Source: an uncultured Pseudomonadota bacterium (GTDB taxonomy: Bacteria > Pseudomonadota > Alphaproteobacteria > RF32 > CAG-239). Taken from it: DNA of 44,439 bases. Shown here in pieces: positions 11,828 to 30,428 of the stretch. Position 1 is the stretch's first letter, and the number at the start of each line of letters is the position of its first letter. The stretch lies in contig CADAAN010000002.1 in NCBI GenBank assembly GCA_902785935.1, positions 1 to 44,439 on the forward strand, read 5' to 3'. The notes beneath the pieces are model-generated. The model was given only the letters and a program-made list of their open reading frames with translations, did no database searches and was not told the origin of the DNA. A program made the position numbers and the translations under genes.

Positions 11828-11833
11828 GAAAAT

Positions 11834-11992
11834 GTAACCAAAATGGTTGCGGTGTCAGAAAAACACTTTACATACAATTGAAACTCCTTTTAAGGGAGTG
11901 AATGAAATAAGCGCTTTGCGACGAATAAGTTCGACTATGTATGTATAGTTTTTCTGCTCCCACTTTAGATATTTTCTGAAGTGATTTTTTTA
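11834..11992 (+). ncRNA. structured leader RNA 1 upstream of LRR gene
   Basis: From the predicted RNA 5' end: a 6-bp hairpin (GTAACC / GGTTGC, 11834-11850). Then a long closing stem, CAGAAAAAC (11856-11864) with GTTTTTCTG (11948-11956), continued by TACATAC / GTATGTA, around an inner ACTCC / GGAGT hairpin. Last is an 8-bp terminator hairpin (CACTTTAG 11961 / CTGAAGTG 11983) with seven T. Same architecture as 30174-30393, though the loops share little sequence. It may be a leader with an attenuator or a separate small RNA. 11733-11798 is plain AT-rich DNA. Confidence 0.5.
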
Positions 11993-12008: not shown

Positions 12009-12185
12009 ATGAAAGGACTCGAAACCCGTCATTCCGAAGTTAAACCCGTCATTAAAGGAATCAAAGATGAGCAAGCTTGTCGCGCTCCACTTGTTTCGGA
12101 ATCTAAAAAAATCCTGAGACAAGCTCAGGATGATGATGAAGAGACCGCCATGACGAAAAAAGAGAAAATAGGAGAAAAGTTATGA
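12009..12185 (+). CDS. possible 58-residue upstream ORF coupled to LRR gene
   Basis: An open frame from ATG 12009 to a TGA at 12183-12185 that overlaps the LRR start (TTATGA). It stays open across the REP-like repeat and is charged (Lys/Glu/Asp-rich). No ribosome binding site precedes its ATG, so it may be a chance frame in repeat DNA. If translated, it could couple LRR translation. Confidence 0.25.
   Translation: MKGLETRHSEVKPVIKGIKDEQACRAPLVSESKKILRQAQDDDEETAMTKKEKIGEKL
12025..12156. repeat. REP-like repeat region
   Basis: Two copies of CCCGTCATT (12025, 12045), paired with inverse-type GACG/GGAATC words, and a perfect hairpin ATCCTGAG (12111-12118) / CTCAGGAT (12124-12131). It is a composite extragenic palindrome between the leader terminator and the LRR start codon. 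The GGAATC word also occurs in the repeat at 785-824. Confidence 0.55.
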
Positions 12186-13057
12186 AAAAATATGTTTTAA
12201 TTTTGGGATTGATAACAAGTTTTAATGCGTCCGCCCATGATTGGATTGACTGCGGAAAGGACGCGTTAGGATATACGGCTAATTGCCAATACAAAATTGA
12301 TACCGATGGTACACTCACCATTCGTGGAACTGGCAACAGCGGCAACATCGGATATTGGTTAGATCATAATGAAAATGAATTCATACAACCATGGAAAGAC
12401 CAAGATGTGAAAAATGTTATCATTGAAGATTCAATTAAGGATTTAGGAATTCTCGGATTTAATCAAATTAAAAGCCAGAATCCGATTATACTTCCTTCTT
12501 CCGTGACACAAATTAGAAGGTATTCTTTTGATGGAATTATAACAGAAGAAGTCATTATTCCTAATTCCGTTATCTCAATTGAGGAGGCAGCTTTTGCTTG
12601 GTCATCCATTCAAAAAATAGTTATCCCCGATTCGGTCAAAACAATTGAATGCTCAGCTTTTCGAGGGATGACAAAATTAACCGATCTCGTCATTCCAAAT
12701 TCGGTTGAAAGAATCGACCAGAACGTTTTGTCAGATTGTAGTAATCTTAAAACATTAACCATTGGTGAAAATACACAATTGGGTGCTTTGTTTGATGCCA
12801 ACGTTCCCGCCAAGCTTAAAATCTATTGCACGGGCGATGTTGCAAAATGCGATGCGAATTTAGAAGCGGCCGGATACCCGGAGCTGAAATCAATCAAAGC
12901 AACAACACAAAAAATTAATGGTGTGACTTATGTTTATGATGATAAAGGCAAACTTGTCACGACATCCGGTCATCGTACTGAAAAGCGCATCTATACCATC
13001 GATGAGGCGAATGCCATCGCGGGAAAGACAAATACATTCTCGATTCGGTATCGTTAA
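12182..13057 (+). CDS. secreted BspA-type leucine-rich repeat protein 1
   Basis: A 291-residue exported protein: signal peptide (1-18, N-A-S-A), an N-terminal beta region (DGTLTIRGTG), and four to five BspA/LRR_5 repeats (about 95-200) with the IPNSV..IE..AF pattern. It ends in RIYT..EA...GKTNT.SIRYR, also found at the end of the 29251-30141 protein. BspA-type repeats usually mediate surface binding; no partner can be read here. AGGAGA site 7 nt upstream. Expression would have to pass a leader terminator and a REP-like repeat. Confidence 0.8.
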   Translation: MKKYVLILGLITSFNASAHDWIDCGKDALGYTANCQYKIDTDGTLTIRGTGNSGNIGYWLDHNENEFIQPWKDQDVKNVIIEDSIKDLGILGFNQIKSQNPIILPSSVTQIRRYSFDGIITEEVIIPNSVISIEEAAFAWSSIQKIVIPDSVKTIECSAFRGMTKLTDLVIPNSVERIDQNVLSDCSNLKTLTIGENTQLGALFDANVPAKLKIYCTGDVAKCDANLEAAGYPELKSIKATTQKINGVTYVYDDKGKLVTTSGHRTEKRIYTIDEANAIAGKTNTFSIRYR

Positions 13058-29224: not shown

Positions 29225-29252
29225 AAAAAAAGAGGGCAACGCCCACTTTTTT
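29225..29252 (-). terminator. terminator of the second LRR gene
   Basis: GGGC / GCCC core hairpin extended by AAAAAAAG.. / ..CTTTTTT, overlapping the stop codon region of the LRR gene. Confidence 0.75.
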
Positions 29253-30141
29253 ATCTGTACCTGATTGATACGGTATTTGTTTTGCCACTCGCCTCCTCTG
29301 CCTCTTTTAATGTATAAATGCGCCTTAAAACATATTTCGGCAAATCATCAAAACTGTCATACGTTTTATCCCCGACTTTGATTTTTCCGTTGCTGTCTAT
29401 GGTATAAATTTTAAGTTTCTTCGGGTCAATTGCGCTGTCAGCCAAAAGCTCGGCACAACTCTTTGAGCCATGTCCGTCACCTTCTTTACAATAAACGTAT
29501 GTGGGCGTTTCTATAAATGCATTTAAACCGATGCTGCTGACATTATCCCCGATGATGATACTTTTCAGATTGTCACAGTTTCTGAAAGCATAATAACCTA
29601 TTGTTTCAACAGATTCCGGAATAATCAGAGTTTCAATGGCTGAACGGGCAAAAGCAAAACCGGCTAATTCTTTCACCCCTTCCGGTATGGTAATGCTTGT
29701 GATATTATTTGACCCGAAGGTATCATAACCTATTTTATTTAATCTTTGAGGCAAGACAACTTCTTTAACATGGCTTTTTTCCCGCTCACCTGAATCAACA
29801 TAAAAAGCACAATCTCCGACATTTTGTACACCTTCTGCCACAACAATTTTTTGAATTTGTTCAAAATGCCCTTCTTCATCACGCCATGGTGCTGTCGTAT
29901 AAAAACGTGAATAAACATCAGGATTTGTCTGCAACAAATCCCGTTTGTACGTGTAATTATTCATTACGGCTTCTTGTGTGTTATCTATCGGCTCAACCTT
30001 AAAAAGACCGTCATCATACAAAGTTGCCATACAATTTTGCCCACAGTCCCATTGCTCAACAATCGTGTTTGATATTTCCTCAGCGTGCAATTGAAATGCC
30101 AAAGCGAATAATGGTGCTATAATTAAAATATTTTTTTTCAT
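29251..30141 (-). CDS. secreted BspA-type leucine-rich repeat protein 2
   Basis: 296 residues: signal peptide (1-20, L-H-A), an N-terminal region with two Cys (WDCGQNCMATL), and about four BspA/LRR_5 repeats (about 105-205: VVLPQRLNKIG..TF, ITIPEGVKELAGFAF, LIIPESVETIGYYAF). A Cys-containing hairpin resembles that of LRR protein 1 (IYCTGD; VYCKEGD). The C-terminal RIYT..EA...GKTNT.SIRYR matches LRR protein 1. AAGGAGA site about 9 nt upstream. The terminator of the leader RNA ends about 33 bp before the ATG, with no room for a separate promoter. Confidence 0.8.
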   Translation of the reverse strand: MKKNILIIAPLFALAFQLHAEEISNTIVEQWDCGQNCMATLYDDGLFKVEPIDNTQEAVMNNYTYKRDLLQTNPDVYSRFYTTAPWRDEEGHFEQIQKIVVAEGVQNVGDCAFYVDSGEREKSHVKEVVLPQRLNKIGYDTFGSNNITSITIPEGVKELAGFAFARSAIETLIIPESVETIGYYAFRNCDNLKSIIIGDNVSSIGLNAFIETPTYVYCKEGDGHGSKSCAELLADSAIDPKKLKIYTIDSNGKIKVGDKTYDSFDDLPKYVLRRIYTLKEAEEASGKTNTVSIRYR

Positions 30142-30173
30142 GATGCTTTCTCCTTGTTGACGTTATATAAATT

Positions 30174-30393
30174 AAAAAGTCGCACCTTAAAGAGCGACGG
30201 GGAGTGCAAAAATCATATTAGAGGAAATGACTCCGAAAACCTTTAGAATAATCTTGTACATTCGTTATCGGCTCCCCGTTTACCATCCGGGGATAAAGGT
30301 TGTTTAAAACAAAAAACAACACCATAAAATTACAGTGTTATCCTCACTGCCTCTAATAAAAAGCTTTTGCAAAGCCCTGCACCTATCAGGTAC
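30174..30393 (-). ncRNA. structured leader RNA 2 upstream of LRR gene
   Basis: On the minus strand from the predicted start: a 6-bp hairpin (GTACCT / AGGTGC). Then closing stems TGCAAAA / TTTTGCA (30365-30371 with 30205-30211) and a perfect 9-bp TATTAGAGG / CCTCTAATA (30350-30358 with 30216-30224). Inside are hairpins CAGTG / CACTG (loop AGGATAA), GGTGTTGTTT / AAACAACC and CCCCG / CGGGG. The AGGATAA loop could pair with TTTATCC next to the last of these, competing with it. A terminator follows (GTCGC / GCGAC plus five T, 30174-30198). No match to RNase P, tmRNA, SRP or a riboswitch that I know. Confidence 0.55.
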
Positions 30394-30399
30394 ATTTTC

Positions 30400-30428
30400 A
30401 TCATGGCACAAATTTTATCCGTTGTCAA
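30400..30428 (-). promoter_or_regulatory. promoter of leader RNA 2
   Basis: Minus strand TTGACA (30423-30428), 17 bp, CATGAT (30400-30405). Downstream GATGAAAATGTA matches the corresponding stretch of leader 1. Confidence 0.65.

Follow-up and report, generated by a model that had tools for sequence, protein, structure and literature searches.

The window, by which we mean the whole 44,439-nucleotide stretch of DNA analysed here, carries on its minus strand, at 30174-30428, an element composed of a promoter, a structured RNA of about 230 nt and a terminator, with an LRR gene directly behind it (Table 1). An earlier note made from the letters of the window had placed a promoter and a terminator at these positions and had argued that the LRR start codon lies too close to the terminator to leave room for another promoter. 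These three points were borne out: the TTGACA-17-CATGAT site is the top-listed promoter-like site in the 25-31 kb region (10/12, with TG), the terminator consists of a stem and a U-run, and this U-run ends 33 nt before the LRR ATG at 30141, with no minus-strand promoter-like site found in between. As rplS, located just upstream of the element, has its own terminator, the element represents a separate transcription unit by sequence. Its minimum free energy of -74.2 kcal/mol is far below that of dinucleotide shuffles (-51.4 +/- 4.4 kcal/mol, z -5.2). A promoter of its own, a structured leader and an intrinsic terminator ahead of the start codon are, at the sequence level, the features of an attenuator, and that LRR expression would need antitermination is a fair inference.

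Table 1. Features of the minus-strand element, its downstream gene and the second leader of the window
Feature	Position	Strand	Support
Promoter: TTGACA (30428-30423), 17-nt spacer, CATGAT (30405-30400), extended -10 TG	30400..30428	(-)	
P1 hairpin GTACC..GGTGC, RNA 5' end	30379..30393	(-)	95.7% of cells paired; 4/6 pairs changed on both sides
P2 hairpin, with TGCAAA (30371-30366) in its loop as the 5' strand of kissing pseudoknot PK-A	30361..30377	(-)	
Pa 5' strand TATTAGAGG, partner 30224-30216, locus-specific 'barcode'	30350..30358	(-)	
P3 hairpin; loop GGATAA (30343-30338) pairs with TTATCC (30296-30291), forming PK-B	30333..30349	(-)	
P4 hairpin GTTGTTTTTT..AAACAAC; sequence and length variable	30299..30320	(-)	alignment
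P5 hairpin CCG..CGG (CCCCG..CGGGG); 3' strand common to PK-C	30276..30290	(-)	
PK-C 5' strand ACGGGGAG, partner 30204-30197, crosses Pa	30272..30279	(-)	
P6 (CCGATAAC:GTTTTCGG), small hairpin P6a, conserved internal loop CGAATG / CTAAAG	30233..30271	(-)	
TCA..TGA clamp around Pa 3' strand CCTCTAATA (30224-30216)	30213..30230	(-)	
Kissing strand TTTGCA, PK-A 3' half	30205..30210	(-)	permutation test z 16.4
Intrinsic terminator GTCGC(N10)GCGAC + TTTTT	30174..30198	(-)	sequence
Shine-Dalgarno AAGGAGA, LRR gene	30148..30154	(-)	sequence
Downstream gene: 296-aa secreted LRR_5 (BspA-like) protein	29251..30141	(-)	PF13306, 6.1e-23
Type B leader ('leader 1'), ~157 nt, own terminator, ahead of LRR gene 12182-13057	11833..11989	(+)	

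A nucleotide search of relatives with the window element returned dozens of matches, and we aligned 35 homologous copies from seven genomes over 271 columns; we refer to this form of the RNA as type A. In the alignment, 92.7% of cells were paired, whereas only 38-48% were when partners were slid by 1-3 columns. The covariation score was 0.441 versus 0.08-0.11 for slid partners, and both sides had changed in 35 of the 58 pairs. The conserved pairing expected in the earlier note is thus confirmed by covariation in these 35 copies, which leaves no doubt that type A is a structured RNA and strongly supports this fold, pseudoknots included. From 5' to 3', the fold consists of P1, P2, Pa, P3, a variable hairpin, P5, P6 with P6a, PK-C and the terminator. 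Two closing stems, of 7 and 9 bp, had previously been drawn around three hairpins. The 9-bp stem is real and corresponds to Pa, a long-range helix of 8-9 bp in which every position varies, with both partners changed at all 8 aligned pairs and 99.6% pairing. The 7-bp stem is not a closing stem but PK-C (GGGGAG:CTCCCC); because it crosses the 9-bp helix, it is a second pseudoknot. P6 also had both sides changed in 8 of 8 pairs. The AGGATAA/TTTATCC pairing, formerly regarded as a competing one, turned out to be the conserved pseudoknot PK-B (97.1% paired; sequence nearly invariant among the 35 copies), which is compatible with the rest of the fold, and a third, kissing pseudoknot (30371-30366 with 30210-30205) had been missed. 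Small ORFs inside the element were rejected by eye, as loop lengths shift the frame among copies.

At its 3' end the fold touches the terminator. Of 35 parsable type A copies, 33 have a PK-C of 6-10 bp, and in 25 its 3' strand enters the terminator stem by 1-3 nt (2 nt in the window copy). Such an overlap would also fit a classical attenuator, in which AGGATAA/TTTATCC would form an antiterminator hairpin that is mutually exclusive with the terminator. That pairing, however, is a conserved part of the knotted fold. In addition, while the two arms of the terminator covary (z 13.9), a locus-specific upstream partner for the terminator 5' arm was sought in the leader and none was found (z 0.0-1.7), so that a classical antiterminator hairpin is not supported; the 3' arm gave a weak upstream-partner signal (z 2.8-3.6). 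We therefore regard a classical attenuator as very improbable.

The second leader of the window, on the plus strand, had been taken as another copy of the same element. It instead belongs to a different subtype, type B, and scores 151.5 bits with the corresponding covariance model (R2). Type B is a different sequence family from type A built on the same plan: P1, P2 with a kissing loop, a clamped Pa strand, P5, P6, PK-C and a terminator. Its Pa clamp, CTG..CAG, is the counterpart of TCA..TGA in type A, and the P6 internal loop is similar in sequence in both types. Across 50 copies, type B covariation was 0.447, compared to at most 0.100 with slid partners. Of the 51 type B copies tested, 47 had a -10 hexamer 12-13 nt ahead of P1, and 38 of 57 type A copies scored at least 9 for a promoter versus 28% of shuffles. 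Among 64 type A copies, 88% had a terminator-like hairpin with a U-run behind the core, versus 5% of shuffles, and so did 100% of 53 type B copies, versus 2-5% of shuffles. These counts are biased toward terminator-bearing copies, since the search for copies started from a terminator-ended element and relied on similarity to it; the type B alignment (A2) had moreover been cut by a pattern ending in a T-run, although the type B count was made on a separate extraction. Overall, computation places a promoter-like site at conserved spacing before most copies tested, a terminator-like hairpin directly after the fold and a same-strand gene start about 20 nt later.

Pa stands out among the helices by its pairing. 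In alignment A1 it comprised 276 Watson-Crick pairs, one G-U pair and one mismatch, whereas P6 had 36 G-U among 280 pairs, and P1 was likewise unlike the nearly G-U-free Pa. A helix that is variable yet nearly without G-U argues for selection on exact private pairing, which perhaps serves to avoid cross-talk between copies. The variable strands differ at every locus (64/64 in type A, 38/38 in type B), and in both types their upstream pairing is highly significant (permutation z 16-29). Each type A or type B copy is thus a compact, multiply pseudoknotted RNA with private Pa and kissing helices.

To survey the 1.46-Mb genome to which the window belongs, we collected copies by covariance-model search. 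This yielded 73 type A copies above 50 bits (model R1) and 64 type B copies above 88 bits (R2), with no overlaps between A and B matches, so that the element is present not twice but about 137 times. A type A or type B leader lies directly upstream and on the same strand at 73 of 81 LRR_5 genes, and of the remaining eight, C8:21086 has a type A copy in degenerate form. Downstream of type A, an ORF begins within 260 nt in 68 of 73 copies; by a heuristic signal-peptide assignment, 10 of these ORFs are pseudopilin-like, 46 carry a signal peptide and 12 are neither. Among 38 parsable type B copies in this genome, 37 have an ORF, of which 31 encode a signal peptide by the same heuristic and 4 are pseudopilin-like. 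The median ATG lies 20 nt past the end of the R1 model (70 type A copies with an ORF). The pseudopilin genes behind leaders (for example, the downstream ORF at C9:31674) belong to numerous prepilin-like proteins with a GRSMVEMLGVLAIIGVLSAG N-terminus, one of which gave no match when scanned against Pfam. The proposed link to LRR genes thus holds for most of them in this genome, but the leaders also precede pseudopilins, other secreted proteins and, in other genera, further targets. About 137 leaders of one architecture in 1.46 Mb, in front of roughly 90% of the LRR surface proteins, would form an unusually large cis-RNA regulon.

We next considered how far the RNA extends beyond this genome. 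Type A was found in 87 of 101 family genomes (15 of 16 genera) and type B in 60 of 82 (14 of 16 genera); copy numbers per family genome are lower bounds, few candidates having been scored. The named records with the RNA are metagenome-assembled genomes of rumen and gut Alphaproteobacteria. In other genera, target genes mostly start 5-30 nt behind the terminator and encode autotransporter-like repeat proteins, lipoproteins, GT2 glycosyltransferases, an acyltransferase, an epimerase, SNase-like secreted nucleases and one XRE regulator. These non-LRR surface targets link the RNA to surface and secreted genes in general and make the dominance of LRR genes specific to one genus, outside which type A mostly precedes other surface genes. 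A class-wide R1 search matched 26 of 240 alphaproteobacterial genomes, many of them far outside the family, and most of these matches show the same plan by eye. The core is also present, with the same kissing and Pa pairings, in six viral contigs (IMG/VR, L379-L384), where it scores 81-94 bits with R3 (a model of distant cores, described below); L381 has it in two copies. This indicates that the RNA also travels on phages or prophages. A plasmid collection searched with the window copy gave no match, and a literature search for such an RNA before LRR genes returned nothing specific. A type A pattern match was also present on a Gastranaerophilales-labelled contig (CALVEI010000052.1), reflecting either mis-binning or transfer.

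Together, these data suggest that the element acts in cis, as a leader that attenuates transcription of a surface- and secreted-protein regulon in gut and rumen Alphaproteobacteria, a reading to which we assign a probability of about 0.7. The earlier interpretation is partly supported in that it was right in kind, a leader plus a terminator, although it underestimated the scale and drew the range of targets too narrowly. If the attenuating-leader reading is correct, a single RNA fold would govern the surface repertoire of an entire family of gut and rumen Alphaproteobacteria.

Whether this RNA is undescribed, as had been proposed, has a divided answer. When the window and close copies were compared with Rfam, neither the gathering thresholds nor permissive ones gave a relevant match, and the window copy did not match RF02221 (sRNA-Xcc1, a small RNA of plant pathogens; gathering score 53 bits) up to E=5. 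However, the best RF02221 match in the window's genome was a degenerate type A copy (C8:20627-20714, 32.9 bits, below the cut-off), and two distant alphaproteobacterial R1 matches scored 37.2 and 31.7 bits with RF02221, likewise below the cut-off; all three matches span the whole family length and are in register. We therefore used R3, a model built from distant alphaproteobacterial cores only (covariation 0.604 versus at most 0.157 slid). R3 finds the window copy (46.5 bits, E 7e-7) as well as RF02221 loci at their Rfam positions (33.6, 31.1 and 30.0 bits, E 3e-4 to 2e-3), whereas a direct R1 search of RF02221 loci found nothing, so that the type A link needed these intermediates. RF02221, at 87 nt, resembles the 3' half alone of the type A architecture: its outer stem GGCCGGGAG/CUCCCGGCC corresponds to PK-C, and it shares the P6 region, the hairpin enclosing the Pa 3' strand and the kissing strand. 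Judged by this predicted homologous core fold, type A is a distant relative of sRNA-Xcc1 via intermediates. Type B was reached neither by R3 nor by RF02221, and its kinship is inferred from shared architecture. What is new, then, is a variant that ends in a terminator and has expanded massively, within a family so far known only through sRNA-Xcc1, the description of which changes accordingly.

This relationship also bears on RF02221 itself, which matched in 54 of 349 Pseudomonadota genomes. In 30 RF02221 loci, the variable strands of the core have complements upstream, in a P2-type hairpin and a Pa strand (permutation z 12.5 and 12.6), and the family as defined in Rfam appears to lack its 5' part. 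These complements occur a second time at the ribosome-binding site (z 10.9 and 6.8), and a terminator after the core was found in 0 of 30 loci. In contrast, the variable strands of types A and B showed no complementarity to the downstream ribosome-binding site (z -0.1 and -1.5 for type A; 0.0 and -1.0 for type B), and we rejected sequestration of this site as their mode of action. Most simply, a single core would serve two output platforms: the ribosome-binding site in the RF02221 branch and the terminator in the alphaproteobacterial branch. The genes behind RF02221 leaders in the same orientation include those for SymE, KilA-N, BRO-N and Rha phage regulators, and in Xanthomonas integron cassettes sRNA-Xcc1 precedes a co-oriented symE (PMC12444791); in Xylella, five of seven copies cluster on an island (PMC12189769). 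The 87-88 nt of this virulence-associated, integron-borne RNA look like the 3' half of a leader, and its strands find a match in an upstream mimic as well as at the ribosome-binding site of the following gene, which offers a concrete new reading of its role. On paper, this branch works like the C4 antisense RNA of phages P1 and P7 (RF01695), in which two variable loops pair with the target mRNA, one of them partly occluding the ribosome-binding site (PMC5320573). C4 RNA and the Acinetobacter baumannii group 1 sRNAs are likewise multi-copy and leader-derived with two variable loops. Nevertheless, RF01695 gave no Rfam match to type A, type B or RF02221 loci and no sequence kinship, and types A and B differ from C4 in lacking a complement to the ribosome-binding site and in having terminators.

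The literature describes sRNA-Xcc1 as a trans-acting sRNA, whereas we read types A and B as cis leaders. Northern blot and RACE revealed sRNA-Xcc1 as an 88-nt species (PMC2996969), and since RNAs of this family can thus be stable small RNAs, the terminated RNA itself could be the product. Types A and B might accordingly be genes for trans-acting small RNAs that lie before surface genes by chance, as their own promoter and terminator would allow and as is known for C4-type antisense RNAs, which are processed from leaders (PMC5320573). The fixed position on the same strand, mostly about 20 nt from the start codon, argues against this, as does the pairing of the locus-specific variable strands inside the same RNA and not with the downstream ribosome-binding site; we consider it quite improbable. 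Even less likely, to an extreme degree, is that the RNA has no regulatory role and is a dispersed repeat or mobile cassette carried along as LRR genes were duplicated. The very high copy number, the tandem copies and the relatives in integron cassettes and viral contigs would fit such an origin, but compensatory changes occur throughout types A and B, and the same RNA precedes unrelated gene families in 15 of 16 genera.

For the attenuating-leader reading, we propose a model in which RNA polymerase would stop at the terminator by default and the downstream gene would be read only when the terminator fails to form. The complete knotted fold would be the read-through state, a direction that we put forward tentatively: as PK-C abuts the terminator base and usually shares 1-3 nt with it, a closed knot should hinder terminator formation. 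If the knot did not close, the P5 hairpin would take the PK-C strand and the terminator would form. The factor tipping this balance could be a ligand, a protein or the speed of transcription. An equally tentative, wider proposal is that a superfamily of knotted leaders with private, strictly Watson-Crick barcodes, expanded to about 137 copies in this small genome, might constitute a general RNA-only system of surface-protein expression, in which the tertiary fold opposes the terminator in place of an alternative hairpin. sRNA-Xcc1 would then be a piece of the translational branch of this superfamily that has been misread.

If the tipping factor were a small molecule bound by the core, the leader would be a riboswitch for a metabolite or second messenger with a surface regulon, as for c-di-GMP riboswitches, which occur in multiple copies and control pili and adhesins. 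The conserved unpaired core sequence, the terminator platform and the many targets of one theme fit such a riboswitch, and platform exchange between terminator and ribosome-binding-site types is typical of this class. Yet no Rfam riboswitch family matched, c-di-GMP riboswitches included, and the targets show no enzyme or transporter theme. c-di-GMP itself is an unlikely ligand, since one genome (G013, 100% complete) has no GGDEF domain and still has at least 13 type A copies. Overall, we consider a riboswitch unlikely, and slightly more unlikely an RNA-based processive antiterminator of the HK022 put or Bacillus EAR type, which would act on RNA polymerase to pass adjacent and possibly later terminators. 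EAR, HK022 put RNAs and RfaH/LoaP leaders are 5' elements of surface-structure or phage genes that promote read-through, and the surface-protein and polysaccharide regulon seen here resembles those of EAR and RfaH. A large knotted RNA abutting a terminator without an alternative base-paired antiterminator would suit this mechanism, as would the single NusG per genome where found, which leaves no RfaH/LoaP paralogue at hand. However, the targets here are mostly single genes, for which long-range antitermination is not needed, there is no Rfam match to EAR or the other families, and the RF02221 relatives act near the ribosome-binding site without a terminator. Dependence on a specialised NusG (RfaH/LoaP) was rejected, as exactly one NusG was found in 14 of 17 family genomes searched and none in the other 3. 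The window's genome (99% complete) is one without a NusG (PF02357) match, probably because of an assembly gap, and most relatives have exactly one.

The genome of the window also contains leaders in unusual surroundings. Type A leaders occur in tandem, in a run of three at C3:57536-58255 and as a pair at C59:4276-4793, spaced by about 0.3 kb and each followed by a short or broken ORF, which suggests local duplication of the leader plus the gene start. At C1:56029-56276, C8:20542-20741 and C36:7729-7965, the downstream genes are interrupted or missing, and here surface genes have been pseudogenised behind intact or decaying leaders.
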